Virus record (IMG/VR): IMGVR_UViG_3300027741_000328 | Location: 1 to 20,175 of that record | DNA: 20,175 nucleotides | Source: a virus | Direction: 5' to 3' (one strand) | Shown here: positions 1-20,175 of the stretch, in pieces | Numbering within the stretch: the stretch's first letter is position 1 | Layout: the number at the start of each line of letters is the position of its first letter | Translations under genes and position numbers: made by a program | The notes under the pieces: generated by a model | Databases searched by the model: none | What the model was told of the DNA's origin: nothing | Seen by the model: the letters and a program-made list of their open reading frames with translations, nothing else

Positions 1-199
1 TGCCGTTTACAGTCACGTTTATGAACCCGACGGGGTTGGCTGGCAAAGTCGCCGAACCAGCCGTAGCCGTTGTCGCCGATGAAAAATTGAGCAAATTCAA
101 AAAGAACTGCTGCCATGAACGGGTTGGCCGGTTGGTTGTCTTATCCAAAAACTCGGCTTGTGGATAAGGGTTGATTTGTTGGGTGTTTGAGAGTGCCAT
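1..199 (-). CDS. Phage structural-region protein, N-terminal part only
   Basis: The first 66 codons of a gene whose 3' part lies beyond the left edge. The start ATG at 199 shares one base with the stop of the gp10-like gene (TAATG), and AGGAG lies just upstream, so the start is well supported. The peptide begins [14 protein letters not shown] and contains NRPTRSWQQFF, then an Ala/Thr-rich stretch and PANPVGFINVTVNG at the window edge. I recall similar starts (a TQQxNPYPQ opening and a PxNPVGFI segment) in small proteins next to gp10-type genes in environmental phages, but I cannot name a function. Position suggests a late virion or tail-associated role. No signal peptide or membrane segment is visible in the part present. 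Confidence 0.8.
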   Translation of the reverse strand, partial: MALSNTQQINPYPQAEFLDKTTNRPTRSWQQFFLNLLNFSSATTATAGSATLPANPVGFINVTVNG

Positions 200-2178
200 T
201 AGTTTTCTCCTGCGCTCATTTTTAAGTTAGCGGAGATGATGACCGCATTCACAGGGTCGGTGATAGACACTTCAAAAACTCTGTCGCGAGCCTGCCCAAG
301 TCGCCGCCATATAGCGCGGTTGCGATACTTACCTAATTGGCCGATAGTGACCCAATATTCTTTAGACCAAGTGGAGCCGCCATCATTAGACCAACGCAAC
401 ATAGCCTGTGGATAAGTTGTGGTCGTGGTGTTGTTAACCGCAGCTTGCAGGCCAAGAATGTAAGTCTCAAGCGCCCCAATGGTGAATTTGGCATTAGGAT
501 AAATGTAATACGGCGAATTAACGTAAATGCTTGGGATTGTGGATAGCCCCGTTGAACCTACGCCTGGCTGAAATTGAATCTGCAATTCCTCAAAATACTG
601 ACGTTGTAGGTCTGTGGTCAGGTGAGGGGCGCGACGTAGCCGACGGACGTTTTGGCCGTTATCGGTATAGTTCTTTTTATCTAGTTCGTATATACAACCA
701 TTGGCATAGTCTCCGACCAGAACCATTCCTTGAAAGACCGCGCAGCAGTTACCGCGATGGCGGCCATAAGTACCATCCGTATTGGTGTACAGCCATTTGT
801 GCCACATCTGCGTAGTGAAGTCGTATGCCCACGTCAAATTAAGTGTCGGGAATGTGCAAACGTAGACTTCGTGGCCTTCAAGCTGATACGTCCAAGCAAT
901 CGCGTCATCAATGTATTGATTGGTGAGCGAATTCTCTACAGCATGGGTGGAAATGCGCTGTGGGATGTAGCCGTTCATCTGCATCACTTGCGCTTGGCCG
1001 CGATTGTTACGCGACACATACGCAAACGATGGGCCAAGGCGAGCAATTGAGAATTGAGCCGCAATGCCTTGTTGGGTAGATGTTCCTGGAATGCGCTGGA
1101 ATGGAAACTGAACCGCGCCCACATCTGTCCACACTTCGGACGATGCTTCGCCCATCAAATAAACTTCGCGATGGTCAACGATGAGCGCCACCAGCTTGTC
1201 GGGAGACCCGTCTTTCAGCGAATAGGATGTGCTAGGCGAAATGGGCGACAACAGGTTAGACGCGCCAAACAGTTGTGTCCCAGGGTCGTTGTAGACAAAG
1301 TAATTGTCCACAATGTCAACAGAATTTGCGCCGCTAAATGCCCCGTCGGTAGATGGCAAAACGCTGAAGTTCAGCGCATACATGGTTTCCGATGCAACGG
1401 TTTGGCTTACGCTAACGGTGTAAGTTCCCGCGCCGCCCGAGCCAGTACCAAATGCGGTGATGATTGTCCCCGCCGTAATGCCCGCGCCTTGGATTGTCTG
1501 CCCAAGATAAATCGTGCCTGATGCGACTGCGGTCACAGTTAGCACAGTTGTGCTAATACTAGCCGTAAATCGAGCGCCGACCGCGGCGCTGCTCAAAGAC
1601 CGCGCTGAAACTGTTTGCGATGTGTTTAGGGTGTAAGTACCAACTCCACCCGTCCCCGTCCCTAGCGCCGTTATAACGGTCTCAGCGGTCACGCCAACAC
1701 CAGTAAGACTTTGGTTAGCTGTAATCGTACCCGAACTCATGGCGGTAACGGTCAGCGTTGTGCCTGACACAGAGCCGGTGAAAATGGCGTTAGACGGTGT
1801 GGAAATGCGCCATGTATACCGATAAGCCCCGTCCACAATGTAGGCGTTGATGCCGTTATCGGTAATGCCTACTCGCCCCGTAGACGAATTGAGCGTTCCT
1901 ACAATGGTCGGGGTCAGATTAGACGTAAAGACGTAAACGTAAACGCCGCAAACCGCAATCATTTGCGACCCGCCCGACAATGTGCGTAGTCCGCGCACTT
2001 CAGCGCTATTCAGCACAGTCTGTAAGGTTAGCCCTGGGGTTGGATAGAGCGCAACAATGCCCCGCGTACCAGGCTGCTTGAGTGGGTCAATCTCGGGAAA
2101 GAAATTGATGCACTCCTGCGATTCCTGATAAATCGACGGTGCTTCGTAAGATGGGCCAACAAAACCAAAATCGGGCAT
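199..2178 (-). CDS. P22 gp10-like packaged-DNA stabilisation (tail hub) protein with inserted repeats
   Basis: A 659-aa protein resembling the P22 gp10 / phage-stabilisation family, which plugs the portal channel after packaging and joins the gp4 ring to the tail needle. Visible support: the N-terminal pattern [14 protein letters not shown] and LYPTPGL (about 23-50), then beta-rich segments such as [18 protein letters not shown] and [14 protein letters not shown], and a gp4-like gene directly upstream, the P22 order. It is longer than P22 gp10 (about 470 aa). Much of the excess is two tandem Gly/Thr-rich modules at residues 130-197 and 202-267, between the YTW segment and [11 protein letters not shown]. 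The start is ATG 2178, ten bases after the previous stop, with AAGGT upstream. The family call is from recognition and order; the modules' role is unknown. Confidence 0.82.
1378..1575 (-). repeat. Gly/Thr-rich virion module, copy 2 (in gp10-like protein)
   Basis: Residues 202-267 of the gp10-like protein, directly after copy 1 with a short SSAAVG linker. The pattern is [52 protein letters not shown]. The GTYT...SQTV end is the best-conserved part across the three copies in this window. Confidence 0.85.
1588..1791 (-). repeat. Gly/Thr-rich virion module, copy 1 (in gp10-like protein)
   Basis: Residues 130-197 of the gp10-like protein. The pattern is [14 protein letters not shown], then SGTI, G(V/I)TAxTxI, [18 protein letters not shown]. 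It matches copy 2 at 1378-1575 and the copy in the gp4-like protein at 2723-2932 at protein level. The corresponding DNA is clearly diverged, so these are not recent duplicates. Confidence 0.85.
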
Positions 2179-2188
2179 TTATTTGACC

Positions 2189-3906: not shown

Positions 3907-5115
3907 TTAACGAAATACTGCCGCATAAACATTTGCAGAATCAATATATGCGGGAGTAAGACTATAAGTTTCCAAAAGGCAATTGCTTACGGCTCTTGCC
4001 TCGCCCGTATTACACCATCCACTATTTAATACACTTGCTGCGCCAGCACCTTTTGAAACACTAGCAACTACAGAATAATTAGTATCAACTAAGTTTGTTG
4101 TAAAATTTATTGCATAATTTCCTGTGCTTGTTTTTGTTATTGATGATACATTGCCCGAGCCGCGAATGGTGGATGGGGACGCGGTTGTTCCATTAAAATT
4201 TACCCAAGCACGACAACCATATGCATTTACAGCAGAACCATAGCCAGAATTAAATAAAAAATTCCCGCTTATGTCAAAACGCCCCCGTTCTGCGTTGTTT
4301 GTTCTAAAACTTAATGGGTGATTGCTATATGAGCCAACAATTGAGATGCTGTTTGTATTATCTGCTGTTATTTGCGTTTTAACAGTACCGTTTTGCACAT
4401 ACATCTGTACATCGCCGCCAGCAGCTTGGAAGTTTGCTAGCAAAGGAGCGCCGCTAGATGCCGTGCTTTGCACATCCAATTTGTAGCCGGGCGAAGTAGT
4501 ACCAATCCCCACATTTTGGCTTGTGTCTACGGTGACCGCAGTAGTTGTGCCATTGCTTTGCAAAGTCAACGAACTAGCACTTTTAACAATTGGCGTAGTG
4601 ACAGACGTTGTGCCGCTTAGTGTGGTAAACGTGCCTGCGGCTGCTGCCGTTCCACCGATAGCTGGCGGCGAAGCAAGGTAAGTGCTAAAGCCTGTTCCGC
4701 TTACGGTGCTAGATGCCGACAATGTAGTAAATGAACCCGCTGCCGCAGCCGTGCCTCCGATGGCTGGCGGGCTTGCCAAATAGGTGCTAAAACCTGTACC
4801 CGATACCGTGCTAGACGCGCTTAATGTGGTAAACGCGCCAGTTCCAGCCGTTGTCGCGCCGATATTTACGCCATCCAATGTGGTAGATGTTGCGCCTAGC
4901 GCGATGGATGTTGAGCCAACAGTTACGCTTGAGTTTGTCAGTTTTGCGTTAGCAATTGACCCCGCAAGCATCGTATTGGTGACCGTTCCCGAGTCGCCGG
5001 TGGTGACCATTGTTCCCGTTGTGGCAGGCACAGCAATGTCAAATGTGGACGCGGTATTAGGGCCATTCAGATTAACCTGGCCGCCGAGCGTTGCTTGAAA
5101 GACTAATGAACCCAT
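3907..5115 (-). CDS. Tail fibre protein with tandem repeat
   Basis: 402 aa, rich in Ser, Thr, Gly and Ala. The N-terminal 180 residues are low-complexity fibre-type sequence that includes NSSVTVGSTSIALGAT (62-77), a motif shared with the neighbouring 654-aa protein. A perfect tandem repeat covers residues 95-127 and 129-161. A NVGIGTTSPGYKLDVQ segment (201-216) is typical of phage tail fibres and marks the transition to a likely receptor-facing C-terminal part (about 220-402), which ends in SANVYAAVFR. AGGAG lies seven bases before ATG 5115. No enzymatic tailspike or intramolecular chaperone motif is recognised. Receptor binding is inferred from composition and position. Confidence 0.8.
   Translation of the reverse strand: MGSLVFQATLGGQVNLNGPNTASTFDIAVPATTGTMVTTGDSGTVTNTMLAGSIANAKLTNSSVTVGSTSIALGATSTTLDGVNIGATTAGTGAFTTLSASSTVSGTGFSTYLASPPAIGGTAAAAGSFTTLSASSTVSGTGFSTYLASPPAIGGTAAAAGTFTTLSGTTSVTTPIVKSASSLTLQSNGTTTAVTVDTSQNVGIGTTSPGYKLDVQSTASSGAPLLANFQAAGGDVQMYVQNGTVKTQITADNTNSISIVGSYSNHPLSFRTNNAERGRFDISGNFLFNSGYGSAVNAYGCRAWVNFNGTTASPSTIRGSGNVSSITKTSTGNYAINFTTNLVDTNYSVVASVSKGAGAASVLNSGWCNTGEARAVSNCLLETYSLTPAYIDSANVYAAVFR
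4630..4833 (-). repeat. Tandem 34-codon repeat in tail fibre, synonymously diverged
   Basis: Two adjacent 102-base units (4732-4833 and 4630-4731) encode the same 33 residues (FTTLSASSTVSGTGFS..., ending AIGGTAAAAG) followed by Ser or Thr. Comparing codon by codon, 21 of the 33 identical residues use different codons, including three Ser sites that switch between AGC and TCG. The units are therefore protein repeats but poor DNA repeats. Confidence 0.93.
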
Positions 5116-5125
5116 GATTTAACTC

Positions 5126-7090
5126 CTATGGTGCAATTACCAATTGCGATGCGCGTAATGCGCCGGTGGATGGTGTAAAGCTAAGTTTAGTGGACGATGT
5201 TTTCTGAGGCAAATTGCCTGTGGTCGATGTGACCCATGTTGGATAAACCGACGATGAAGTTGACACATCATCCGTAATGGCCGTATTTGTGGCATTTGTT
5301 GCCGTAGTTGCTGTGGTCGCGCTGCTTGCATTGCCGGTCAAAGCACCGACAAATGTCGTGCTAGTGACCGATGTCAAGCCTGCAATCGTGGTGGCCGTAC
5401 CGCCCAAACTGACCGCAGTTGAGCCAATAGTGATGGATGAATTGGTCAGCGCAGCATTAGGGATGTTTGTCAGACTTGCGCCCGAGCCGCTAAACGTGGT
5501 GGCGGCCAACAATCCGCTGCTGGGCGTGTACTGAAGTTTGGTCGAACTGGTGTATTCGGTTGAGATATTCCCGCTTGTTTGATTGGCAAACAGAGGATAA
5601 CGAACCGCCGCAGTAGTTGTGTCATCGGTAACTGTTGCGTAAGCCGTGGGCGTTGACCATGTTGGCGTGCCCGAGCCAGCCGAGGTTAAGACCTGGCCAG
5701 AAGTGCCTGCCGCAGTAAACGCATAAGCCGTACCCGTGCCGTACGCCACCGCGCCCGCAGTCGGAGTTGTTGTAGCATTTGTGCCTCCGTTCGCAATTGC
5801 AAGTGTTCCCACAACGCTGCCAGCCAAAACATACGAATTGGATTGGCTAACATAAATCGCCCCATTAGGGCTGTTGGCATACGCAACAACACCAATTTTG
5901 ACCGGATATCCCGTCGGCGGGTAAGTGTTCATTAACTGACCAGCAGAGTACGGGCTTACATAAACCGTGTCCCCGACCGTCATTGCGCCAAGACTTAGGC
6001 CGTTAATTAGACCGGCAATGACCACATAACCAGCGGTTGCGGTAGGAATGTCCTGATTTGCCAATCCGATGGCGTTACCTGTGGTTTGCGTATTGGCTTG
6101 TGCCAATGCCACCAAGGGATAGGTAAACCCGCTTGTGGTCGAAGTAATGTAGACCGGCGCGCCCTTAGAAATCGTGCTTCCGGTGTTGTTGTAAACCTTT
6201 AACTGGGTCTCTTGGCCGACATGGATTGTGTTGTTCGTTACGTCATTGAAATACGACAGCGCCTTTTGCGTGGAGTCATACCAAAGCCGACCCTCCGCAT
6301 AGCTTGGCGCGGAAGTCGACGTAAATACGCCGTAATTGCTTATGGTTGGGTTGGCTAGGGTGACCGCGGTCAGCGTGGATGCCGTAGCGCCAAGCGCAAT
6401 CGATGTACTTCCAATGGTGATGCTTGAGTTAAGCAAGCCGCCATTAGGGATGCCGGTAATGTTTGTGCCGGTCAGCGTCGGAGTCGTGGAGTAGCTTGGT
6501 GTTACCCCACCAACAAGTACGCCTGTGCCCGTTGCAAGGAACGTAGTCGCGCCTGCGCTTGTTTGGTAAGGGATAGACCCTGCTGCGCCGCCTGCAAGGT
6601 TTGTGGCCGTTGTAGCGGTAGTGGCAGACCCTGCCGTAGTCGCTGACCCTGCGGTGGTCGCATAGGTCGCGGTGGCCGCATTGCCGTTAATCGAGCCGCT
6701 AATCGTGTTTGTGACTGACAGACCGGTCGAACTGAGCGTTGTAAACGCGCCGGTAGATGGCGTGATATTGCCGACCGGAGTGTTGTTTAGCGCGGTAATT
6801 GTGATGGAAACACCAGAAATTGACCCGCCGGTGATGTTGACATTGCTAGACGCGAAATTGTTGAATGTTGCAAGTCCGCTGCTTGTAATTGTTGTAAACG
6901 CGCCCGTTGATGGGGTCGTTGAGCCGATTGGAGATGCGTCAATCGTGCTATTAAGAATCGTGTCTGAATTGATAGGAGGGGAGAAAAACTCCCCGCCTGG
7001 GCCTACTAAGCCGACACAAACGCCCGTCTCGCTAAAGATGCCCTGCACGGGCACGATATTGATTGTTTGCGTAAGTGCGGCAGAGGTCAT
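5126..7090 (-). CDS. Long tail fibre / baseplate-type structural protein
   Basis: 654 aa, low complexity apart from one central domain. Repeats: STTPSTGAFTTI and GNITPSTGAFTTL (about 57-68 and 108-119), NSSITIGSTSIALGAT-like segments (221-236 and 550-565), and a TDD...YP...SSTKL...TPS(S/T)G unit at 487-526 and 606-643. The central globular region (about 262-419) has GRLWYDSTQKALSYF, GAPVYIT, GYVVIAGLINGL, GDTVYVSP and GAIYVSQ. I recognise it as a domain recurring in phage tail and cyanophage structural proteins. The Ala/Thr run at 135-164 probably forms a flexible shaft. It sits just upstream of the 402-aa fibre gene, so the two may form successive fibre segments. No strong ribosome site is seen; a GC hairpin lies just before ATG 7090. 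Confidence 0.8.
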   Translation of the reverse strand: MTSAALTQTINIVPVQGIFSETGVCVGLVGPGGEFFSPPINSDTILNSTIDASPIGSTTPSTGAFTTITSSGLATFNNFASSNVNITGGSISGVSITITALNNTPVGNITPSTGAFTTLSSTGLSVTNTISGSINGNAATATYATTAGSATTAGSATTATTATNLAGGAAGSIPYQTSAGATTFLATGTGVLVGGVTPSYSTTPTLTGTNITGIPNGGLLNSSITIGSTSIALGATASTLTAVTLANPTISNYGVFTSTSAPSYAEGRLWYDSTQKALSYFNDVTNNTIHVGQETQLKVYNNTGSTISKGAPVYITSTTSGFTYPLVALAQANTQTTGNAIGLANQDIPTATAGYVVIAGLINGLSLGAMTVGDTVYVSPYSAGQLMNTYPPTGYPVKIGVVAYANSPNGAIYVSQSNSYVLAGSVVGTLAIANGGTNATTTPTAGAVAYGTGTAYAFTAAGTSGQVLTSAGSGTPTWSTPTAYATVTDDTTTAAVRYPLFANQTSGNISTEYTSSTKLQYTPSSGLLAATTFSGSGASLTNIPNAALTNSSITIGSTAVSLGGTATTIAGLTSVTSTTFVGALTGNASSATTATTATNATNTAITDDVSTSSSVYPTWVTSTTGNLPQKTSSTKLSFTPSTGALRASQLVIAP

Positions 7091-7115: not shown

Positions 7116-7463
7116 TTACGATTGGTCTGACACAGCAGTAACGTATACCAAAGATGGGCCAGCAGCCGCGCCAATTATGCGGACATAAAAAGGTGCGGTA
7201 GGAACGGCAAGCACAATCGGAGATGTCATGCCTGCGGGCAAAACGTAATCGCCGGTTGAAGTCCCGCTTACAGGGAAGACAGCAGCGCCCACGTTAGCGT
7301 CGCCCCATTTAACAGCAACCGCAACCGAGCCAGTGTTCAAAAAACTTGCGTAATTGACCTGGTCGTTTGTGTTGTCATCAATGAGGGTAGCCGACGTGGA
7401 CGAAGCCGTTACCGACAGAGCAACGGTTTGCCCTGCTGTACGGATAACGGATGTGCTTGCCAT
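7116..7463 (-). CDS. Small beta-rich virion-type protein
   Basis: 115 aa, beginning MASTSVIRTAGQTVALSV, with LNTGSVAVAVKWGDANVGAAVFPVSG and a C-terminal FYVRIIGAAAGPSLVYVTA. It is nearly all short beta strands, with many Ser, Thr, Ala and Val residues and few charges, as in small phage decoration or fibre-associated proteins. Starts of this kind are common in freshwater phage structural regions, but I cannot name a family. ATG 7463 lies two bases after the upstream stop (TAATCATG), implying reinitiation or coupling; the ribosome site is weak. It lies upstream of the fibre genes and downstream of the late terminator. Confidence 0.78.
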   Translation of the reverse strand: MASTSVIRTAGQTVALSVTASSTSATLIDDNTNDQVNYASFLNTGSVAVAVKWGDANVGAAVFPVSGTSTGDYVLPAGMTSPIVLAVPTAPFYVRIIGAAAGPSLVYVTAVSDQS

Positions 7464-8344: not shown

Positions 8345-9592
8345 TTAAGCTGCAACGCGGCAAGCGAGTTCGGGGTACAGCGGTGCCCAGCCATACAACA
8401 CGTCCAAGCGAGTCGGAATCGAATCGTTGTTGATGGTGTATTGGCGAACCACGCGCATGGACAGACCGATTTCCTTGTCGGAAGCGCGACCGGCGAAGTG
8501 AACGCCATCAGGCAGTTCCAAGTCAGCCACAGCCAAAGTGAATGCATTGCGGTGCATCACGATGTTTTGGGGCGACACGGTTCCGGTCTGATTGAACGGG
8601 GTCACAGCAGCGGTCGAAGACGTAGCCGAGATGTATACGTTTTGGAACTGGCCTGCGGAGATGACAGCGGGGCTGACAGTCACCGAGGTAGTACCGGACG
8701 TGGAAACAGTCACAGCAGAGGTCACGACAAAGTTACGCAGCTTGTTAGAGCCGTAAGCCTGGCGGTTCTGTGGGTTGACTGCGTACACGTTTGCAATGGT
8801 GATAACGTCACCTTGTTGCAGCGATGCGGTAGCAGTCGTGGCGGTCAGGGCGATGGTGGACGTAGAAGCCCAGCCAGAGGTCAAGAAGCCAGTTGCGGTA
8901 GAAGTATTGCAAGCCAAGGTAGCTGTGCTATACGAACCGAAAGTCTGGCTCACAACGTTCTGGTCAAGTTTCCAGTTCATGCCGGCGGAGTCGCGTCCCA
9001 TCAAGCCCTTGCGATATTGCTCGCCAATGGCTTCTTGGGGCACAAACAGACCCTTCAAGCTGTCAACGATAGTCGCAGCGGTGAAAGGCTCCACGATACA
9101 CGAACGGCGGCCATCACGGGGTGCGCCCTCGGCATCGAGGTAAGCGCCTGCGGTCAGGTAAGTAATCAAACCGGTGGGAGGCGTGCCAGCAGTACCGACA
9201 ATATTGGCGGTATTGTTTTTAGCCATAACAAGACCGTCGCGGTCAATCTTATTGGCAATGGCGGCCACAGCGGGTTTGAGAACGCGGTCACTAAACATAT
9301 CAAGAGATAATGCAAGGTCAGCGGTGGTGAACTGGGTATCAACGTGGAACTGGGTCGACAGGGTAACGGGAACCGAGGTCTCGTTAAAGTCTTCCACGTT
9401 CAACGCGGGGCCAGTCGTACCAATAAAGCGGCCAGGGCGACGGACGTTTACGGTATTACCGATTTTCGCACCAACGACAGCAAACTGGTCGTCGTAGTTG
9501 CGGTCTACTTCTGACGTGAAAGTCAGTTCATTTTCCAAAACCATCAATGCTTCATTGGTGATTTTGGAGATGGTCAACAGATTGTTGCTCAT
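8345..9592 (-). CDS. Major capsid protein, P22 gp5-like coat
   Basis: 415 aa. It begins MSNNLLTISKITNEALMVLENE, then TNEALMVLENELTFTSEVDR, GNTVNVRRPGRF and VTLSTQFHVDTQFTTADLALSLD. These are features of the P22-type coat family, an HK97 fold with an inserted domain. Residues about 225-320 form a Ser/Thr-rich segment (ALTATTATASLQQGDVITIA and following) where the P22 coat carries its inserted beta-barrel. The C-terminal RLDVLYGWAPLYPELACRVAA is also typical. It lies directly downstream of scaffold, and AGGAG is seven bases before ATG 9592. Length is close to P22 gp5 (430 aa). The family call rests on pattern and gene order. Confidence 0.87.
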   Translation of the reverse strand: MSNNLLTISKITNEALMVLENELTFTSEVDRNYDDQFAVVGAKIGNTVNVRRPGRFIGTTGPALNVEDFNETSVPVTLSTQFHVDTQFTTADLALSLDMFSDRVLKPAVAAIANKIDRDGLVMAKNNTANIVGTAGTPPTGLITYLTAGAYLDAEGAPRDGRRSCIVEPFTAATIVDSLKGLFVPQEAIGEQYRKGLMGRDSAGMNWKLDQNVVSQTFGSYSTATLACNTSTATGFLTSGWASTSTIALTATTATASLQQGDVITIANVYAVNPQNRQAYGSNKLRNFVVTSAVTVSTSGTTSVTVSPAVISAGQFQNVYISATSSTAAVTPFNQTGTVSPQNIVMHRNAFTLAVADLELPDGVHFAGRASDKEIGLSMRVVRQYTINNDSIPTRLDVLYGWAPLYPELACRVAA

Positions 9593-9611: not shown

Positions 9612-10514
9612 CTAGCGGATACGACCAGCTTTTCTCGCTTCTTTCCAGGCTTGATAACTTCCGTGGAATTGACCGTCAGAACCAATTGACACATCACTCA
9701 TCTTGCCCGTTCCGCGAATAGGGCTAATCGGCGGTGGTGCTTTACTTTTACCGACAGGATTACTTGACTTGGTCTCAGGTTGCTTCTCAAACCGCGCCTC
9801 TAGTTTCCCAATCTCGCGTAGCGCCTGCGCTGGCGACATAGAAGTTAGGCGCTTTGCAGCGTCATCTTCTTTTGCAAGGTGATACAGGATTTGTGGGCCT
9901 ACATCACTTTCCAATATTGCGTCCCGAATGTGGTCACCAACAACCACGCTGCTTGACGCAACCATGTCGTCGAAATCGGGCATTTCTGCTTTCGCTGTTG
10001 CCACTTTGGAGGCCCAGGTAGATATTACCTTTTGGCGCTCCTCGTCAGCCCTGCGATTAGCGTCTTCCCTATCTCGCTTTACCAATGCTTGCTCAGTCGA
10101 CCATTCTGCTAGTGCCCTTGCATATTCAAAAGCATCAGTAAATTGGCTCGGCTGTGGCTCTGCGTTCGCTTGCTGCACCGGTTGGGGTGCTGCTTGCTGG
10201 CGTAGTGCTGCTAACTCGGTTTCTAGCCTTTGCCTTGCTTCACGTTCTTGCGCTGCTTCTTGTTTGGCAAGTTCGCGTTGCTTGGTTATCTCTGAAAACC
10301 GCTTTTCAAGTTTCGGATTCTGCTTCCGTTCCTCTGTCGGTTTGGCATCATCGTCTGCTGACTGTTCACTCTGTGTCGTATCCTCTGACGGCTCTGCGGG
10401 AGTATTCTCAACCGTAGCCTCGTCAGTATCACTAGCAGCTAAACCAAGTCGATTTGCATAAAAATCTGCCGAATTCTCACTGGTCAAAACATGACCGGCT
10501 TCTTTGTCACTCAT
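9612..10514 (-). CDS. Capsid scaffolding protein
   Basis: 300 aa. Residues 1-65 are acidic and Ser/Thr-rich, about 66-108 is a Glu/Arg/Gln-rich coiled coil (KLEKRFSEITKQRELAKQ), 109-125 is a Gln/Pro/Ala linker, and 125-255 is helical. The C-terminus is basic (YQAWKEARKAGRIR), like the coat-binding helix of the P22 gp8 scaffold; P22 gp8 is 303 aa. It sits between portal and coat, the P22 order. AGGGA lies five bases before ATG 10514. It should co-assemble with coat and leave the procapsid before or during packaging. Sequence identity to gp8 is not obvious, so the call rests on length, composition, tail and synteny. Confidence 0.88.
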   Translation of the reverse strand: MSDKEAGHVLTSENSADFYANRLGLAASDTDEATVENTPAEPSEDTTQSEQSADDDAKPTEERKQNPKLEKRFSEITKQRELAKQEAAQEREARQRLETELAALRQQAAPQPVQQANAEPQPSQFTDAFEYARALAEWSTEQALVKRDREDANRRADEERQKVISTWASKVATAKAEMPDFDDMVASSSVVVGDHIRDAILESDVGPQILYHLAKEDDAAKRLTSMSPAQALREIGKLEARFEKQPETKSSNPVGKSKAPPPISPIRGTGKMSDVSIGSDGQFHGSYQAWKEARKAGRIR

Positions 10515-10577: not shown

Positions 10578-12659
10578 TTATATTGCGCGCTCAGTAGTTT
10601 CCAACGATGCCGCATGAGCCGATGCTTTATCCAAATGCGCCAACATAAGGGCAACTTCGGCTTTCATGCGCTCAATTTCCAATTGCGTCTGAGTTTTAAG
10701 CACAGTATCGTGCGCCTGGGTGCTTGTCCGCATTTCCATGTCCTTATGGCGCTCTTCGTTCCGCAATTCAATATCGTGGGCGCGGTTGGTTTCTTTAATG
10801 AGCGTCCGCTTGGTTTCAGCGTCTTGCTTGACTTGCTCCACGTCTTGACGGGTTTTAATCATCATCTGCATTTGCTGGATAGCCTGCTGCATCTTCTGCA
10901 TTTGCGCCTGATTTGCCTTAAGTTGCATCTGAACTTGCGGCGGCACGGGTGATTTATCGTCAATCTGCGCCATCGGGTTAGCAGCGGCCAGCCGGTCGGC
11001 AATGATGTCCGCACCAGGGAAGTCCATATTGCGGAAGATAAGGTCTCCAGCCTGCTGCATAAGGGCGGGGTCAACCTTGAGCATACTGACCATAGATTCC
11101 ACGGCCTCTTGGCGCTTGCTGTTGTAGCCTGGGCCGGTATCCATAACCACGTCGTATTCGCCCACAGTCATGTCGTGCATGATGGTGTAAACACCTTGTG
11201 CGTCCTGCTTGGGTTCATTGATGTTTACCAAGTCAGGCTTGCCGTCATCTCCGATGATTCGCATTACCCGTTGAGAGTCGTAAATCTTGGGAATAAGGTC
11301 AAGAATAATCGTGCCGGTCTGCGCGATGGATTTGGTCAAGTTGTCGTAGAAATCAAAGTTGGTCAGGTCAACTTGTTGCTGCTGGCCGTTCAAAGCCTTG
11401 CCCGAGATGTTTCCTGGCAGTTGTTGGCTTGGGTCAAATATGCCCATCAGCGTCGCAATGTCTTGGTTAATCATTGCAGACGCGGCCATCACTCCGTTTG
11501 GAGGCGGCTCGGGCTGTAGGCGCTGTGGAGGAGGCGCTGGCTGTCCGTCAATGTCGGTTTGCTTGTAACGCAACAGCGGAAACGACTTTATGTTCGCTGC
11601 CGCCCATTCGGTCTCGTGGCCCTCGTCCTGCCCTTCGGCCATCAACCACTTGGCTTTAGGAGCCAGCGCGACGCTTTCGGTGACAGTTGTTTGCCAAAAG
11701 TTATACATCCGCTGCGCGTCTTTAGCGTGGCGCACCATGCCAAATTTCTTGCGCTTGTCGCCGATGACGATATGGCGGCCATAGACGGGCACGACGGGGA
11801 TGTAAGAACCAGGCCAATCGCGCTCTTCAATGACTTCAATGGCGGTCAGCTTCTTCCACTTTATTACTTTTTTATATGAATCACGCTCGTCAACTACGGT
11901 CAAACCAGCTAAAGCCATTCGGTCTTTCATGTCTTTATCCATGAATCCCTGAGTGCCGTCGGACAGTTTGACCAGCTTGGCAGGCTCGCGACGGGTGTAG
12001 AAATACTCGGCAATGCGTATATCTTCTTTGGTAATCCATTCGGATTGGCTGTCGCCTGTGCCGCGCTGCGTAAAGCTGCTGCCATCGTCGGAATCGGGGT
12101 ACAACTCGCGGAATTTGACCTTGCTCATCATTGTGGTGATAAGGCAACGGTCAGCATCCGAGCCGTTTACGGCTTCGGAATTGGGGTCAAAGTAGACGGT
12201 AAACGGGTTTTGGATAGCCTCAATAAAGATTTCTTGGTCAAAGCTGTCCTGCTTTACATAGTCGGTTGTAACGCGCCAAAAGCCCCAACCCATCCGCACG
12301 GCATGGTCAAAAGCGGTGTCGTAGGCATTGTCGGCATTGGAGTTAATCTCAATATGGCGGCAGATGCCCTCAACGATTTGGGCGGTCTTAACATCAGCTT
12401 GGGTGTTTGTTGGGTGAACCTTGATGCGTGGGCGTTGCTGGCGCTGCTGATTGGTCACTTGGCGGCAGTATCCATCTAGCTTGTTAATGGTCAGGACGGG
12501 GCGCGATTCAAGATTACGAGAGTTTTGTAGGTCAACGGGCCATTGGTCGCCGCCCGAGACAAATTTCAAGTCTTCTAGGGCTTCTTGGCGGTTCATTGTG
12601 TCCGCGTCGTTGCAAAGTTTAAGAAAGTCCTTTGCTTCGTTAATTATTGCGTCGTCCAT
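10578..12659 (-). CDS. Portal protein, P22 gp1-like
   Basis: 693 aa (P22 portal is 725 aa). The N-terminal half has the family pattern: EALEDLKFVSGGDQWP, RPVLTINKLDGYCRQVTNQQRQ, AFDHAVRMGWGFWRV and NPFTVYFDPNSEAV. A long helical C-terminal region (about 575-690), rich in Gln, Met and Lys (QMQKMQQAIQQMQMM, then ELRNEERHKDMEMR), fits the barrel helix of P22-type portals. It forms the dodecameric entry channel at one head vertex and binds terminase. ATG 12659 directly follows the terL stop, so the two are coupled. The Met/Gln run in the barrel is unusually repetitive but remains in frame. Confidence 0.92.
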   Translation of the reverse strand: MDDAIINEAKDFLKLCNDADTMNRQEALEDLKFVSGGDQWPVDLQNSRNLESRPVLTINKLDGYCRQVTNQQRQQRPRIKVHPTNTQADVKTAQIVEGICRHIEINSNADNAYDTAFDHAVRMGWGFWRVTTDYVKQDSFDQEIFIEAIQNPFTVYFDPNSEAVNGSDADRCLITTMMSKVKFRELYPDSDDGSSFTQRGTGDSQSEWITKEDIRIAEYFYTRREPAKLVKLSDGTQGFMDKDMKDRMALAGLTVVDERDSYKKVIKWKKLTAIEVIEERDWPGSYIPVVPVYGRHIVIGDKRKKFGMVRHAKDAQRMYNFWQTTVTESVALAPKAKWLMAEGQDEGHETEWAAANIKSFPLLRYKQTDIDGQPAPPPQRLQPEPPPNGVMAASAMINQDIATLMGIFDPSQQLPGNISGKALNGQQQQVDLTNFDFYDNLTKSIAQTGTIILDLIPKIYDSQRVMRIIGDDGKPDLVNINEPKQDAQGVYTIMHDMTVGEYDVVMDTGPGYNSKRQEAVESMVSMLKVDPALMQQAGDLIFRNMDFPGADIIADRLAAANPMAQIDDKSPVPPQVQMQLKANQAQMQKMQQAIQQMQMMIKTRQDVEQVKQDAETKRTLIKETNRAHDIELRNEERHKDMEMRTSTQAHDTVLKTQTQLEIERMKAEVALMLAHLDKASAHAASLETTERAI

Positions 12660-13931
12660 TTAGCCCATCCAATTCTGTGGTTGCAAATAGGTCGATTTGG
12701 ACACTCGCTTACGCGGCTCATTTACTACAAGCCCAAGCATACGGAATGCGTCCGCGCCATGCGAAAACTGGTCATGCAGCGGGTTTTTGCTGAACGCTTT
12801 AGTGTCGGGGTCAACCTCGTAGCGGTAATGCCGCAAACATTGTAACCCATCGTAGCAGTTATCCCTGTCAAACCAGCAATTTCTAAATAGGGTACGCGCC
12901 GCGTTAATACTGTCCACAATCGGGGTGCGCGGGATGATTTTGGTCTTATATCCTGCGCTTCTGACAATTTGGTCAATGCTCCGACCGGCGGCGGCCAACG
13001 TTTTATTCTCAGCGTCGTGCGGCAACCAGAGGGTGTCGTAGACATAGCCGTAGGTTTGCATCTTGGCCAAGTAGTCGGATATGGTCTTTTGATTGTCCTC
13101 GTGGTAGCGGATGAGCCTAGTTTCCATACCAATAAACTGCACAAACCATATCGCAGTCGCATCTGACCAGCCCAAGTCGAACACGGCGTGAACCGGCTTC
13201 ATCGGGTCATAGCCCACCTTGGTGATGCGGCCATCCAATTCAGCCATCTGCATCTCGCGGGCAAAGATAGCCCCGTCGACGGTTTGGCGGCATATGCCTT
13301 CCCATACGGTGTTATATGCCTCTACGTCGCGCATTCTGAGCGCGTCTTTCTCTAGCATCAACGTCTCAGGAAACCAGGGATTGTCCGACCAGTTAATCTT
13401 TTGGACGACGGAGTTCTCAGGCGGGTGCAGCACAAACCGCTGATAAGTCTCGTCCGTCTCCAACTCAGGATTAAACGTAACCCATATCTCGCTGCCTTCC
13501 TTGCGAATGGTTGGAATCAGGATGTTCCACGATAGGCGGCTGGTGGTCTGCGCCTCTTCTACCCAGCAAATATCCACGCCCTCGTAGGATTTGACGTTAG
13601 CGACGTTGTTCTTGAGGCCAACAAAACTGAATTCAGTCCCGTTCTTTCCCCGAATGCTGGCCTGGGTGATTTCGTAAAAGCCCTCTAGCCCTAAGTCGAT
13701 GATTTGGTCGCACAGCAGTTTGTGGACGGAATCTTTGATAGAAGTCTGAAACTCACGGGCGCAAAGGATACGCAAACTGCGTTGTGCGCCTTTTATGAGC
13801 AATGCCCGAGCCACGCCCCAAGACTTAGCCCCACCGCGCCCACCGTACAAGATTCGGTAGCGGCTTTTCTCAGGCTGGAACAGGCACTCCAGCTTTACGG
13901 GGAATTGCGCCTTACTTAGATTCGGCTGCAT
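12660..13931 (-). CDS. terL: Terminase large subunit
   Basis: 423 aa. The ATPase half has Walker A GGRGGAKSW (30-38), Walker B VDICWVEEA (119-127) and the coupling motif TFNP (152-155). The nuclease half has an RNase H-type pattern: VFDLGWSDATAIWF (250-263, Asp252), WLPHDAENK (302-310) and HDQFSHGADAFRML (386-399), which supply the likely metal-binding acidic residues. The order and the GGRGGAKS form fit the PBSX-type Terminase_3 group. It drives DNA into the procapsid and cuts concatemers. The start overlaps the terS-like gene by 20 bases and its end abuts portal. Length and motifs are complete. Confidence 0.96.
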   Translation of the reverse strand: MQPNLSKAQFPVKLECLFQPEKSRYRILYGGRGGAKSWGVARALLIKGAQRSLRILCAREFQTSIKDSVHKLLCDQIIDLGLEGFYEITQASIRGKNGTEFSFVGLKNNVANVKSYEGVDICWVEEAQTTSRLSWNILIPTIRKEGSEIWVTFNPELETDETYQRFVLHPPENSVVQKINWSDNPWFPETLMLEKDALRMRDVEAYNTVWEGICRQTVDGAIFAREMQMAELDGRITKVGYDPMKPVHAVFDLGWSDATAIWFVQFIGMETRLIRYHEDNQKTISDYLAKMQTYGYVYDTLWLPHDAENKTLAAAGRSIDQIVRSAGYKTKIIPRTPIVDSINAARTLFRNCWFDRDNCYDGLQCLRHYRYEVDPDTKAFSKNPLHDQFSHGADAFRMLGLVVNEPRKRVSKSTYLQPQNWMG

Positions 13932-14259
13932 TCGGCGCTACAAAGCTGACCTGGATGCCTTCAATGGCCGACCCATCAGGATTAGCCAGCTTGGTTGTAT
14001 TTGTCTCGCCCCAGGCCATTTGTGCTTTTGTCCACCATATCAGCGCCGTAGTGTCGCCCCCTTGGGCTTTGTTGAACAGCGTCCGAGCAATCGACGCGCT
14101 GGCCGTAGCCTTACCTAACGCCAGTTCAGTCTCGTAATATTTGCGCAACGTCTTATCGCTTATGCCTAAAAGTGCGCCTATTTGGTCGTGCGGCAATCCG
14201 AGCCCCGCAGCTTGTTGGGCTTGCGCTTTTGTCTTGTCGGTTGGCTCGTGAGGTAGCAT
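13912..14259 (-). CDS. terS: Terminase small subunit (putative)
   Basis: 115 aa. The N-terminal half reads as a helix-turn-helix: AQQAAGLGLPHDQIGALLGI followed by SDKTLRKYYETEL (about 15-46). The next helices (ASASIARTLFNKAQ, TALIWWTKAQMAW) would form the oligomerisation part. The pattern of a DNA-binding HTH followed by TLxxxYxxEL is common in small terminases, and the gene lies immediately upstream of terL, overlapping it by 20 bases. It would recognise the packaging site and recruit TerL. ATG 14259 has only a weak ribosome site. The pac or cos site cannot be identified by eye. Confidence 0.85.
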   Translation of the reverse strand: MLPHEPTDKTKAQAQQAAGLGLPHDQIGALLGISDKTLRKYYETELALGKATASASIARTLFNKAQGGDTTALIWWTKAQMAWGETNTTKLANPDGSAIEGIQVSFVAPNAAESK

Positions 14260-14290
14260 CTTTTTATTAGCGGAAAGTGTTGACTAAATT

Positions 14291-14998
14291 TTAAGCAATT
14301 TCTGCGGCTTCTGTCAATATGGAGCGTGTGGGTCGGTGATGCACCGCCGCTGTGTCGAGGGAATCGACCATCGCCTGCTTCACACGCTTAGGATAAGGCT
14401 TTGCTAATTTTGCTACTTGATTTCTCATCTCATCATCAAGTGGCATCAAATATCTGTGTTTTCCAATTGTTTTAACAATCTTACATTCACTTGGCTTCAA
14501 TGTCTTTCGTTGTTGCCCTTGCTGAATATTCCATCCTTTTTCGCTTATTTGGCGAGAATGAAGTCTTTTCCCATTATGCCAATATTCAATGCCTGGTGCT
14601 GTATCACCGCAATAAATCCAGTTACCAGCCTGATATACACCACCATGATGCCCGTATTGTGGGTCAGCAAATGAAACAATTAGTCTTAAATTAGGACTGT
14701 TTTTCTTTAAAAACATTAAAGCAAACTTAACTATTCTGCTTACTGTGCTTTTGTGGCTCGTCAAAGCAATACGAGTCAACTCGCATCCTTCATCTTGTTT
14801 TAACCCGTATGGTTTCATCAAATTTGATGATGCGCCCCTACTAAAAATGACTACACCAATAAACTTTCCGTCTTCCCATGCGCCTATCTTAACTAGTGGT
14901 GGTACGGGAATTGATTTGCTGTAATGCCATGTCGTGCAAGCATACTTAGCCGCGTCATGGCTTGCCCAATCAATTTTCAAGTCAGGTTTGTCTTGCAT
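14291..14998 (-). CDS. mom: Mom-like DNA adenine hypermodification protein
   Basis: 235 aa. It resembles phage Mu Mom, an acetyltransferase-fold enzyme that converts adenine in DNA to a carbamoylmethyl form and so blocks many restriction enzymes. The recognisable Mom-family pattern is WHYSKSIPVPP (24-34), KIGAWEDGKFIGVVIFSRGA (37-56), GCELTRIAL (71-79), then VSRIV and LRLIVSFADPQYGHHGGVYQ (104-123) with AGNWIYCG, and GKHRYLMPLD (179-188). Mu Mom is 241 aa, so this looks complete. ATG 14998 lies inside the upstream ParB-like gene (17-base overlap). A TTG one codon earlier is a less likely start. The ribosome site is weak (GGTAAAG), so translation probably depends on coupling. The target sequence cannot be deduced here. 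Confidence 0.92.
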   Translation of the reverse strand: MQDKPDLKIDWASHDAAKYACTTWHYSKSIPVPPLVKIGAWEDGKFIGVVIFSRGASSNLMKPYGLKQDEGCELTRIALTSHKSTVSRIVKFALMFLKKNSPNLRLIVSFADPQYGHHGGVYQAGNWIYCGDTAPGIEYWHNGKRLHSRQISEKGWNIQQGQQRKTLKPSECKIVKTIGKHRYLMPLDDEMRNQVAKLAKPYPKRVKQAMVDSLDTAAVHHRPTRSILTEAAEIA

Positions 14999-15488
14999 CA
15001 AATTCTTTACCGCAATGAGGACAGACTATCCATTTTGGGTCCAATTCGTCTAATTTTCCTTGTTCTTCTTCTGTTGCGGGCTGAAAATCAGGCTCATCTA
15101 ATAATTTGCTAATTTCATCGTTGTTAAAGCCCAAAATATTTAAGGCAAATCCGTCTGCCAGCAACTCGTTTAGCTCAACGGTCAACAGGTCTGTGTCCCA
15201 TTCAGCATTCATTGCCAGCTTGTTGTCAGCAATGATGAGCGCCTTGCGCTGGGTGTCCGTCAGGTGCGCCAATTCAATAACCGGCACTTCCTTCATGCCT
15301 AGCTTACGCGCAGCCATTAACCGCCCGTGGCCTGCAATGATGCCCTGGTCGCCATCCACCAAGATTGGATTAGTCCAGCCAAATTCCTTAATGCTGGCCG
15401 CTATTTGCGCGACTTGAGCGTCGGAATGCTTGCGGCTATTGTTGACGTAAGGGATTAGCTTGTCAACGGCGACCTGGGTGATGTTCAC
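14982..15488 (-). CDS. ParB/Srx-fold nuclease-like protein with CPHC tail
   Basis: 168 aa. Residues 1-95 match the ParB N-terminal / sulfiredoxin fold: VDKLIPYVNNSRKHSDAQV, IKEFGWTNPILVDGD, GIIAGHGRLMAARKLG (49-64) and RKALIIADNKLAMNAEWD (81-98). In many phages this form precedes or is fused to a DNA methyltransferase; here the next gene is mom. The C-terminus ends WIVCPHCGKEFDARQT, a single CxxC knuckle (156-159) with no second pair. The start is GTG 15488, overlapping the upstream 34-aa gene as GTGA. A role in targeting or controlling DNA modification is inferred from neighbours; ParB-type domains can also be CTPases or nucleases. Confidence 0.88.
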   Translation of the reverse strand: MNITQVAVDKLIPYVNNSRKHSDAQVAQIAASIKEFGWTNPILVDGDQGIIAGHGRLMAARKLGMKEVPVIELAHLTDTQRKALIIADNKLAMNAEWDTDLLTVELNELLADGFALNILGFNNDEISKLLDEPDFQPATEEEQGKLDELDPKWIVCPHCGKEFDARQT

Positions 15489-16856: not shown

Positions 16857-16883
16857 ATAGCCCTTTCTATGTGGTCAGGGAAA

Positions 16884-16905: not shown

Positions 16906-16913
16906 AGACCCGC

Positions 16914-17799: not shown

Positions 17800-17878
17800 A
17801 TCGTCGCTTTCTTGTGTTGTCGTCTCTGATTACCGTTTGCTTTACAAAAGTCCACGACCCACATATCGGGCATTTCAT
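17690..17878 (-). CDS. NrdR-like zinc-ribbon protein
   Basis: 62 aa. MKCPICGSWTFVKQT (1-15) and RKRRYECANEHRFGTVE (23-39) are very like the zinc ribbon at the start of NrdR (CPxC, RRRxxC, RFTTxE). Cys3, Cys6, Cys29 and His33 are likely metal ligands. The ATP-cone half of NrdR is absent, so this is a stand-alone ribbon, probably binding nucleic acid. ATG 17878 overlaps the ninB stop as ATGA, with AGGGA nine bases upstream, which makes it credible. Its last 110 bases overlap the YbcO-like gene in another frame, and residues after about 42 may be unconstrained. Confidence 0.75.
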   Translation of the reverse strand: MKCPICGSWTFVKQTVIRDDNTRKRRYECANEHRFGTVETIVCAKQKPAKSGAKPAVSALRD

Positions 17879-18276
17879 ACGTCGATTCCCTTATTGGTTG
17901 CCCAGGCAATTAAAAATTCTATGAACTCGCTTGAGTCCTCTACGGTGAATTTGTGAGACTGTAGGCCAAGCTGTACCACGCGGTCACCGTCCAAACTTGG
18001 CACGACTTTGCCGATTCTGCGATTAGTCTCATGCGCCCATTGGTCTATCAGCAGGCGTTTCCAATCGTCGGCAGTCCATGTTGACCCTGCTTCGCCCATT
18101 TTTTGAGCAATTTGAGCAATGATGGAGTGAAACATATCGTTCTGCTCGGTGCTGCGCCTACTTTCTTTTATTTCCAAGCGCATCTTTTTGCCCGATTCCA
18201 ACGCATCTTTGACTCTAGGCCACAGGTCTTTCATCACCGTCGTGGCTTGAGTCGGGCTATACAGGTGGACTATCAC
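17875..18276 (-). CDS. ninB: NinB-like recombination protein
   Basis: 133 aa, with the NinB (lambda Orf) pattern: LEIKESRRSTEQNDMFHSII (about 34-53), TWTADDWKRLLIDQW (66-80) and a C-terminal FTVEDSSEFIEFLIAWATNK. Lambda Orf is 146 aa and helps load recombinase onto SSB-coated single strands. The start is GTG 18276 with AAGG seven bases upstream; it keeps the HLYSPTQATTV strand, which an ATG at 18234 would drop. It overlaps the upstream nuclease-like gene by 20 bases and the zinc-ribbon gene by four. Position in a recombination cluster supports the call. Confidence 0.87.
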   Translation of the reverse strand: MIVHLYSPTQATTVMKDLWPRVKDALESGKKMRLEIKESRRSTEQNDMFHSIIAQIAQKMGEAGSTWTADDWKRLLIDQWAHETNRRIGKVVPSLDGDRVVQLGLQSHKFTVEDSSEFIEFLIAWATNKGIDV

Positions 18277-18550
18277 TCATGCACCTTATCAGCCATTGCG
18301 CGGCATCTACTGAATCAATCAAAGCGACCGTTCCACCGTTCCAGCCCCTCAAAAATGCACTTTGCTTTTCATTTAACCCTTTTCTGCCGTAGGCGCTGCT
18401 TCGGTCTTTGATTTCGACTAAAGCCGTTTTTCCCGCGTAGCCTACAAGTAGGTCTACCGGCAGCTTTAGAACGAATACAGAGGCTCCTGATTCCCTTAGT
18501 GCGGCCACTATTTCGGCCTGGTTCCCGTCAACCCTTGCTGCGTGTCGCAT
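18257..18550 (-). CDS. PD-(D/E)XK nuclease-like protein
   Basis: 97 aa. It has the compact endonuclease pattern: Glu13 in NQAEIVAALRESGASV, Asp33 in LPVDLLVGYAG, and Glu46-x-Lys48 in ALVEIKDR, followed by LNEKQSAFLRGWNGGTVALI and VDAAQWLI. This fits small phage PD-(D/E)XK proteins of the VRR-NUC or resolvase-like kind. It may cut branched DNA during recombination beside NinB and YbcO. GGAG lies seven bases before ATG 18550. Overlaps are 23 bases with the upstream gene and 20 with ninB. The exact substrate cannot be told from sequence. Confidence 0.84.
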   Translation of the reverse strand: MRHAARVDGNQAEIVAALRESGASVFVLKLPVDLLVGYAGKTALVEIKDRSSAYGRKGLNEKQSAFLRGWNGGTVALIDSVDAAQWLIRCMSDSPPV

Positions 18551-18707
18551 TCATTTGCTCCAAAACATGGGCTTTAATGCCCCTAAACAAGTCGTCTTCA
18601 TCCATGCGCTTCACTTCAGCCCATGCCCATTCTTTCCAAGCTGGGTCGCGGCAAAGACGCACATATTCCGCAAATGTTGCGGCGCGGATTTTTTCAATGT
18701 CAAACAC
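18528..18707 (-). CDS. 59-aa unknown protein
   Basis: 59 aa, from GTG 18707 (read FDIEKIRAATFAEYVRLCRD after the initiator). This start has GGGGA five bases upstream, whereas GTG 18719 has no ribosome site. The peptide is helical and charged, with DPAWKEWAWAEVKRMDEDDL and a C-terminal GIKAHVLEQMNATRSKG. Trp-rich helices like this occur in small phage Nin-region proteins, but I recognise no family. It begins at the end of the PAPS-reductase-like gene and overlaps the nuclease-like gene. Confidence 0.7.
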   Translation of the reverse strand: MFDIEKIRAATFAEYVRLCRDPAWKEWAWAEVKRMDEDDLFRGIKAHVLEQMNATRSKG

Positions 18708-18708
18708 A

Positions 18709-19503
18709 TCAGTCCCCACAAAAGCAGGAAATTGCTTCTTCTATTGGGTCAAACATATCGCGTTGCTCTTTGGAAAACTTCAGCATCTGTGCATAGGATG
18801 GACGGTCTTTGCTAAAAGTGCCACCAATCAACGCCTCTTGTTTTGCCCACCAAACGGCTCGGTCTGGCTTATCAAACACCATTGATGAAATTTGATGCAT
18901 GGGCTTCATAAAGCACAAATCACAATTTCCCAACGCTGTTACGCCATCAGCAAAATTTAAACGCAAATCAAAATTATTGTTCTTCCAAAAATCTTGAACC
19001 GTTGCTTGCGTCACATCGCTGTTTGCCAATGGCATCAACTTAGTGCCTCGCATTTTTGTAACACGCTTAGGCTCATCTGCCCTAATGCCGACCATTGTCT
19101 CAAACTCATCAATACCCAAACTTTTAAAATACCGCTCAATGGGCAAAATTTTTAGTTCTGACGTGCAAAATCTCATCACGCTGTTAGGCAAAAAACTGCG
19201 TTTTTTTATCAAGTCAGCAAATGGTTGTCCATCACGATTGGCGGCTTCAAAGTTCACCACCTTGAATTTGTCTCCATCTGGCGTGTATTCTAGCCAAGTG
19301 ATAGGCACATTCCAATGTTCTGAGCAATCCTGCACAAACCGCAGCGTGGCTTCATCTTCTTTGCCGGTGTTGGCAAAACAGACAGTCGCCTCGGCTGGCA
19401 ACCCGCCATTGCTTTGCAGTACGCGCCAAAGCATATAAGCGCTAGTACGCCCGCCGCTAAAGCTGATGCAAGTCGGCTCGGTTATCTTGAATGGGTCAAA
19501 CAT
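18709..19503 (-). CDS. PAPS reductase-fold protein
   Basis: 264 aa. The PP-loop SFSGGRTSAYML (14-25) binds adenine nucleotides in the PAPS reductase / ATP pyrophosphatase fold. FANTGKEDEATLRFV (43-57) is the usual second motif, and RFCTSELKILPIERY (111-125) resembles the Cys/Lys motif of this family. Cys194xxCys197 and Cys260xCys262, with Cys113, could bind an iron-sulfur cluster. It is complete in length. Phage proteins of this type are common and mostly unassigned; relatives include sulfate-assimilation reductases and the DndC protein of DNA phosphorothioation. A role in nucleotide or DNA chemistry is inference. Start ATG 19503 overlaps the upstream gene by eight bases. Confidence 0.87.
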   Translation of the reverse strand: MFDPFKITEPTCISFSGGRTSAYMLWRVLQSNGGLPAEATVCFANTGKEDEATLRFVQDCSEHWNVPITWLEYTPDGDKFKVVNFEAANRDGQPFADLIKKRSFLPNSVMRFCTSELKILPIERYFKSLGIDEFETMVGIRADEPKRVTKMRGTKLMPLANSDVTQATVQDFWKNNNFDLRLNFADGVTALGNCDLCFMKPMHQISSMVFDKPDRAVWWAKQEALIGGTFSKDRPSYAQMLKFSKEQRDMFDPIEEAISCFCGD

Positions 19504-19861
19504 TTTTCACGCTCGCAATTAGTTCGGCAATGCGCCGCTTATTCGTTGCCATTTGTTCGGCGGTCAAGTCGTTGCTCAAACGCAAAACCGATGGCTCCAC
19601 ATAGCAGCGCCGCAACAAGGCCATCCATTGCGGCAGGCTTGGCGGTTCTTCCGGAAGCTGCTCAAGTGCCCGCTTGATTGTCGCCGCACTTGTCCCGCCC
19701 ATTTTCTCCGCCCAATGGTTCATTGCGTTGACCACACCCGCATCAGACCCGTCGGGCAGCACCTGGCCGGTCTTCCATTGGTTCATAAACCGAGTGCCAT
19801 AGTTGCCCTGCATCGTGGCAAAAATGCGCTGAATCCAGCTGTCAGGTAATTTGGAGGGCAT
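19496..19861 (-). CDS. Replication protein P-like helicase loader (putative)
   Basis: 121 aa from ATG 19861, beginning MPSKLPDSWIQRIFATMQGN. The pattern WIQRIF...YGTRFMNQW, then DAGVVNAMNHWAEKMGGTSA, ATIKRALEQLPEEPPSLPQW and LLRRCYVEP, is one I associate with phage replication proteins of the lambda P group in proteobacterial phages. It is shorter than lambda P (233 aa). It follows the O-like gene directly, the lambda order. ATG 19876 is an alternative start five codons upstream; neither has a strong ribosome site, and both lie within the O-like gene's end. It would load host DnaB at the phage origin, if the assignment holds. Confidence 0.72.
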   Translation of the reverse strand: MPSKLPDSWIQRIFATMQGNYGTRFMNQWKTGQVLPDGSDAGVVNAMNHWAEKMGGTSAATIKRALEQLPEEPPSLPQWMALLRRCYVEPSVLRLSNDLTAEQMATNKRRIAELIASVKNV

Positions 19862-20175
19862 TGAAGTTTCTTTCATCGCCAAAGATGGCCCTGGCAGCGC
19901 CAAGGTTCTTGTCCTGATAGTTATGAGATTGTTTAGGCTGCAACCAATCGGCCTTAAAACCCGTCCAGCCGCGTTCACAGCACGTTTCCAAAGCTACCTG
20001 TAGGCTTACCCCTGCTTTGTCCGCTTCGCGCTGTATCCCGTCTATTGCGGTTTGGGTGACTGCCGCTTTTTTTGCTTTCCTTAGCTTTAACCAATCCTGC
20101 CAAACAGAATCCGTCACGCCGAACGGCGGGGCGACTGTATTCTTTGGTTTATGGTTATTGGTTAATGGTTCTTGG
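19842..20175 (-). CDS. O-like replication protein, C-terminal part
   Basis: The reading frame stays open to the right edge, so this is the 3' end of a larger gene, not a 91-aa protein from GTG 20117. About 110 residues are visible: a linker QEPLTNNHKPKNTVAPPFG, then VWQDWLKLRKAKKAAVTQTA, GIQREADKAGVSLQVALETC and CERGWTGFKADWLQPK. That AVTxTA...AGxSLxxALExCxERGWTGFKAxW ending is typical of phage replication initiator and DNA-binding proteins. Origin binding would lie in the missing N-terminal part. It overlaps the P-like gene by 20 bases. Confidence 0.82.
   Translation of the reverse strand, partial: QEPLTNNHKPKNTVAPPFGVTDSVWQDWLKLRKAKKAAVTQTAIDGIQREADKAGVSLQVALETCCERGWTGFKADWLQPKQSHNYQDKNLGAARAIFGDERNFNALQIT
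20143..20175. repeat. Degenerate 7-bp tandem repeat in replication gene
   Basis: Four 7-base units, tttggtt, tatggtt, attggtt and aatggtt, follow each other from 20143 to 20170. A fifth (cttgg) is cut by the window edge. The constant part is TGGTT, and the first two bases vary. The array lies in the linker of the O-like protein and may continue beyond the window. Confidence 0.8.

Follow-up and report, generated by a model that had tools for sequence, protein, structure and literature searches.

Why does a virus record of 20,175 bases contain no GATC at all? This question was raised by the IMG/VR record IMGVR_UViG_3300027741_000328, which was analysed over its entire length (positions 1..20175, hereafter the window) and is possibly a fragment of a genome. 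Its predicted proteins, among them a P22-like portal and a P22-like coat protein, are those of a podovirus. The results presented below indicate, with a probability of roughly 80%, that the lineage of this virus has long been selected for the loss of sites at which Type II restriction endonucleases in its hosts cut.

The absence of GATC from the window had been claimed in an earlier note made from the sequence alone, and it was borne out by counting. The expected number of sites was 78.0 from base composition, 57.5 under a second-order Markov model (z = -9.7) and 57.4±6.3 when synonymous codons of the window genes were shuffled (z = -9.1), with a minimum of 42 across 300 shuffles. When GATC was compared with the other tetranucleotides under the Markov and codon-shuffle models, as the same note had proposed, its z value was found to be the lowest among all 256 in the Markov model. 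The palindromic tetranucleotides next after GATC had codon-shuffle ratios of observed to expected counts (O/E) of 0.43 (TCGA), 0.54 (TATA), 0.59 (AGCT and CCGG, the latter still present 45 times) and 0.62 (GTAC). GANTC, also reported as present, was indeed retained, and it was lost in none of 128 relatives.

It might be supposed that base composition, codon usage or mutational bias eliminated GATC, since several other palindromes were mildly depleted in the window. This supposition has next to no probability. It is contradicted by the codon shuffles, sequences one step away from GATC showed no reduction, occurring at 47.6 per kb in the window versus 42.1 in the sister genome G003, and the sister locus L005 (record G003) contained 37 GATC sites at a GC content of 0.493, versus none in the window at ~0.507.

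Loss of sites in the window and its relatives

Motifs of 5 and 6 bases were evaluated by codon shuffling over the window and the genomes G001 and G002 jointly; these three genomes are related, and O/E values of single motifs given below also refer to this joint set unless another is named. Among 5-base motifs with a central W or S, the three lowest were GGWCC (2 versus 79.0 expected, O/E 0.03), CCSGG (5 versus 91.5, O/E 0.05) and CASTG (32 versus 157.3), whereas the sister specificities GGSCC, CCWGG and CAWTG had O/E values of 0.69, 1.0 and 1.66, respectively. Because CAWTG was over-represented, the loss of CASTG is less secure than the other two. The window alone contained one GGWCC (15038..15042; 22.2 expected), one CCSGG (4487..4491; 24.2 expected) and two CASTG sites (7331..7335 and 10478..10482; 42.9 expected in the window genes). 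The median O/E of the 6-base palindromes was 0.19, and 33 of 64 were at 0.2 or below; for non-palindromic 6-mers the median was 0.97, and 16 of 398 were this low. Among tetranucleotides other than GATC, the palindromes were only mildly low (median 0.85 versus 1.00). Therefore, the earlier note was right that there was no general loss of palindromes as far as 4-mers are concerned, GATC being the sole one eliminated, but this does not extend to GGWCC, CCSGG and many 6-mers; similarly, strong avoidance of one 4-mer was correctly described among 4-mers, whereas the avoided 5- and 6-base sites were overlooked.

The absence of GATC was shared by the nearest relatives. No GATC was found in the closest ones, L001 to L004, with terminases 97% identical to that of the window, nor in L265, which matches the window at 98.7% identity over a 9.4 kb stretch (0 versus 32 expected). 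The same was true of the whole records G001 (29,572 bases, 65.4 expected) and G002 (30,360 bases, 75.8 expected), which diverge from the window by ~8.5 to 17% of bases in long aligned blocks; for these two and the window combined, codon shuffling gave 0 observed versus 194.2 expected. The sister clade retains GATC, with 61 sites in the 32,159 bases of G003. When the GATC positions of G003 were aligned, none was kept in the window (0 of 25), G001 (0 of 27) or G002 (0 of 28), while eleven control 4-mers were kept at 17-52% in these alignments, which span 10.7 to 12.1 kb at 74-75% identity. The changes at the lost sites, pooled over the three comparisons, hit all four positions.

Despite its 61 GATC sites, G003 contained 0 GGWCC and 0 CCSGG. 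The set of lost motifs comprised GATC, GGWCC, CCSGG and CASTG in the window and AGCT, GGWCC, CCSGG and CGWCG in L005. Most simply, the losses of GGWCC and CCSGG likely preceded the divergence of the two clades, and that of GATC followed it.

Site loss was then considered in the wider family, which was sampled rather than covered, by terminase searches, five against viral contigs (the best 80 of at least 599 matches being kept from each) and a sixth against bacterial contigs. The 250 loci obtained were reduced to 198 by removal of duplicates sharing 100-mers, the window was added, and the 131 with terminase identity above 70% were kept, 68 being dropped. With loss defined as O/E of 0.2 or below and at least 12 sites expected, CGCG was lost in 37 of 114 relatives, CCGG in 28 of 83, GATC in 18 of 129, ACGT in 7 of 122, AGCT in 6 of 131, GGCC in 6 of 128, GTAC in 4 of 107 and GCGC in 1 of 125. 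CTAG was not lost within the family. Among the 240 non-palindromic 4-mers, losses were found only in CGGA, CGGG and CTGG, one each. A second test applied a first-order model and a tighter limit to 80 palindromic motifs (gapped ones included) and 1200 non-palindromic control motifs. Loss was recorded in 277 of 7659 tests for the former and in 34 of 119,179 for the latter, the tests not being independent, as members are related and motifs overlap. CTNAG was lost in three of 130 loci (L200, L192 and L195), all of which had also lost GTAC, a lineage-specific pattern.

The losses discriminated between W and S at the central base. For GGWCC/GGSCC, 39 loci had lost the W form and 4 the S form; for CCSGG/CCWGG, 24 had lost the S form and 14 the W form; for GCWGC/GCSGC, 16 had lost the W form and 1 the S form; and no locus had lost both members of any of these pairs; CGWCG was lost in 17 loci, CGSCG in 6 and both in 2, and CASTG and CAWTG were never lost together in one locus. 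Since both CCSGG words contain CCGG, loss of CCGG also removes CCSGG. Restriction enzymes make the same W/S distinction when they recognise degenerate bases.

Loss of GATC in the family was all-or-none and repeated. Among 120 loci with at least 15 sites expected, the O/E of GATC was bimodal: 15 were at 0.1 or below, the interval from 0.1 to 0.2 was empty, a single locus fell between 0.2 and 0.3, and all others were higher. The 18 losses among 130 tree members required at least 8 changes, or 4 to 8 under other limits, on a terminase tree built from a single gene by a quick method and having many weak deep forks. A distant GATC-free record, G044, had 0 sites versus 66.6 expected in 21,097 bases. 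The 70 members that are 9 kb or longer showed 47 distinct sets of lost motifs (median 3 lost; 5 members with none), a number that partial contigs may inflate and that was obtained with 17 motifs picked after the data had been viewed.

Host restriction and its rivals

Avoidance of Type II restriction predicts this combination: several unrelated palindromes lost, W distinguished from S, and losses that recur and are all-or-none. Under the proposed mechanism, Type II endonucleases would cut unmodified palindromic sites when phage DNA enters the cell, and each site would reduce survival. Genomes with fewer sites would leave more survivors, so that mutation would strip out sites until at most one was left. 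The selecting agents would accordingly be host nucleases, and the one directed at GATC would be of the MboI/DpnII/Sau3AI kind. These are GATC-cutting enzymes.

Several observations weigh against this explanation. The non-palindromic CTCT (0.45) and GGAG (0.52) were as low as the mildly depleted palindromic 4-mers, TATA was reduced in the window, and low values were also found for TGWTC (0.28), AGSTC (0.31) and GAWCC (0.31), although half of the TGWTC and GAWCC words contain GATC and half of the AGSTC words contain AGCT. The loss of CASTG may be partly compositional. The DpnII family was found in none of the 6 genomes holding terminase relatives, in none of the 250 genomes of the Massilia order and in just 1 of 151 genomes from the order to which the Methylococcales metagenome-assembled genome (MAG) belongs, the host not being proven to lie within either order. 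As this family was nearly absent from the searched genomes, the GATC cutter is inferred, not seen. In addition, according to PMC6286503, the clearest GATC case (46 phages) concerns Type IIM, that is, modification-directed, enzymes, and few sites are avoided by coliphages that modify their DNA by means of a hydroxymethylase; the window has a Mom-like gene and, unlike those coliphages, still avoids sites.

The Type IIM case in PMC6286503 favours, for GATC, a methyl-dependent defence, in which a nuclease acting on methylated GATC (Type IIM or Mrr-like), or phosphorothioate restriction at GATC, would have purged the site. All 46 phages whose hosts have Type IIM GATC enzymes were below expectation in GATC, 45 of them below 0.8 (PMC6286503), and for haloviruses PMC7230728 names both an Mrr nuclease that targets methylated GATC and a GATC phosphorothioation system. 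However, a defence of this kind would leave GGWCC, CCSGG and the other palindromes unaccounted for and a second cause would be required, and this explanation is considered unlikely.

The earlier note had offered a choice between long exposure to a GATC-cutting restriction system and Dam-directed functions. The first half agrees with the present results once GATC is taken as one item of an avoided Type II set; the second fared poorly. According to it, loss of GATC would be an escape from Dam/MutH mismatch repair, or from nicking by MutH, in a Dam-positive host, and phage phiX174 provides a precedent, since it lacks GATC and added sites lower its mutation rate, as stated in PMC5014478. Dam and MutH concern GATC alone, and the parallel losses of GGWCC and CCSGG, as well as those of CCGG, CGCG and AGCT in the family, would remain unexplained. 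Moreover, with a positive E. coli control, MutH was over the cut-off in only 1 of the 250 Massilia-order genomes (2 at E of 0.001 or below) and in 0 of the 151 from the Methylococcales MAG's order, orders within which the host is not proven to lie. Escape from Dam-directed functions was therefore judged quite improbable, and selection by host Type II restriction remains the preferred reading.

Candidate hosts were sought among bacterial contigs by terminase. The search gave 72 loci, 71 of which had GATC at an O/E of 0.4 or above. The exception was L096, a contig of a beta-proteobacterial MAG with 3 GATC versus 27.8 expected; its terminase was 66% identical over 240 residues, beneath the 70% limit, so that it stands outside the family counts, and it is possibly a GATC-poor relative with a hint of the host. 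The nearest terminases on bacterial contigs (74-82%) came from Legionella, Burkholderiales and Methylococcales MAGs, in contigs that may be mis-binned phage, and on the nearest long bacterial contig the identity was 61%.

The Mom module and other genes

The window encodes, all on the minus strand, a P22-like coat protein (8345..9592; PF11651, 7.6e-35), a P22-like portal protein (10578..12659; PF16510, 9.6e-175), the Terminase_3-type large terminase on which the family tree is based (12660..13931; PF04466, 6.6e-35), a small terminase (13912..14259; phrog_309, 2.1e-12), a Mom-like DNA modification protein (14291..15001; PF25680, 4.7e-44; phrog_1384, 3.5e-58) and, upstream of Mom, a ParB-N domain protein (14982..15488; PF02195, 4.8e-07; phrog_620, 6.4e-63). 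A NinB-like protein was also recognised.

Neither G001, G002 nor G003 yielded a tblastn match (E 1e-3) to the small terminase, Mom or ParB genes, and G001 carries a different open frame where the window has these genes (13912-15488). The three genes therefore probably constitute a swapped module. The sole GGWCC of the window (15038) lies within it, which fits a recent arrival, although this is one site only.

The presence of the Mom-like gene suggests that loss of GATC might be linked to the phage's own Mom or methylases, for example through purging of sites that Mom cannot mask. In a search in which the window served as a working control, Mom was not found in the GATC-free G001 and G002. Conversely, the Mom-bearing relatives L277 (27 versus 24 expected), L278 (46 versus 42) and L323 (57 versus 64) had ordinary numbers of GATC. 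Within 51 records (50 of the 80 loci of the first search, chosen by length and GATC state, and the window), Mom was detected in two, the window and G039, which holds L058 with a GATC O/E of 0.70. Among 80 Mom loci lying outside the 131 family members, 10 were GATC-poor (O/E of 0.2 or below, no minimum expectation), a proportion similar to the 18 of 130 in the family; one Mom-bearing locus, L268, had 0 GATC versus 44 expected. The window with Mom avoids sites as completely as its relatives without detected Mom. Mom as the cause of GATC loss was therefore rejected, and as a common cause it is contradicted already by the GATC-free relatives in which it was not detected.

Phage methylases gave no clean link either. 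A D12-type (Dam-like) methylase was over the cut-off in none of the 51 records, with one sub-threshold match in G030, and an N6_N4 methylase was over it in 11, among them the GATC-free G043 and G044 as well as GATC-bearing records, so the latter was rejected as a correlate of GATC state. Taken together, a link to the phage's own modification genes appears very improbable.

Two observations concern the same genes. The L268 phage contig contains two Mom-like stretches (1236-1775 and 6001-6699), 29% and 91% identical to the window Mom. L021, L056, L067 and L068 encode an N6_N4-type methylase (frames of 400-418 residues) that ends ~450 bases upstream of the large terminase, at roughly the place that ParB and Mom occupy in the window.

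A PAPS-reductase-like protein is encoded at 18709-19503 (PF01507, 8.6e-05; phrog_424, 4.8e-47); its superfamily also includes DndC. The version in L265 was only 63% identical, despite the near identity of L265 to the window over 9.4 kb. An integrase of the PF00589 type, the only type sought, was found in none of the 12 family records searched, which are possibly fragments; this agrees with the statement in PMC6286503 that complete elimination is commoner in non-temperate phages. A DNA search of an annotated phage collection for near relatives matched only two records, over 4-5% of the window at ~71% identity.

Known systems and the record of lost sites

Avoidance of restriction sites by phages is already well known. 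In the PMC6286503 survey of double-stranded DNA phages, avoidance is found mainly at orthodox Type II sites, and the near-complete elimination of such sites, more frequent there in non-temperate phages, resembles what was found here. That survey dealt with known hosts and its GATC case was Type IIM, whereas here the losses were placed on a family tree. The HF1-group haloviruses, as described in PMC7230728, are the closer parallel in pattern: GATC and CTAG are wholly absent in seven isolates, GGWCC is absent except in HRTV-7, many 6-mer palindromes are absent and AGCT is absent in one member only, so that avoidance is multi-site and varies with lineage, as in the present family. They are archaeal myoviruses whose hosts have described GATC and CTAG systems; unlike them, the uncultured podovirus family lost CCGG, CGCG, CCSGG and others and retained CTAG.

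Other likenesses cover GATC only. Staphylococcus phages K and fRuSau02 are reported to be wholly GATC-free like the window, but they are staphylococcal Twort-like phages (PMC5618024). Phage phiX174 has zero GATC with ~20 expected, but its DNA is single-stranded and 5,386 bases long, and the effect studied was mismatch repair (PMC5014478). The reverse case is also described, with mycobacteriophages showing a four-fold excess of GATC (PMC4841201).

Among the open-access papers listed, none dealt, judging by title and abstract opening, with this podovirus family or with a family-wide map of lost sites, although one may exist elsewhere. What sets the present family apart is the number of close relatives that bear different, clean sets of lost sites. 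It may tentatively be proposed, at somewhat less than even odds, that each lineage of the family bears a barcode of Type II sites, each eliminated completely or not at all, that records the restriction systems of its hosts, with successive purges readable in order. Because of the clean differences among close relatives, a tree can serve for studying the tempo and order of site loss, and from the missing sites the restriction enzymes of the hosts would be predicted. If the proposal is true, such barcodes could be used to find the hosts of these phages and to track host shifts.

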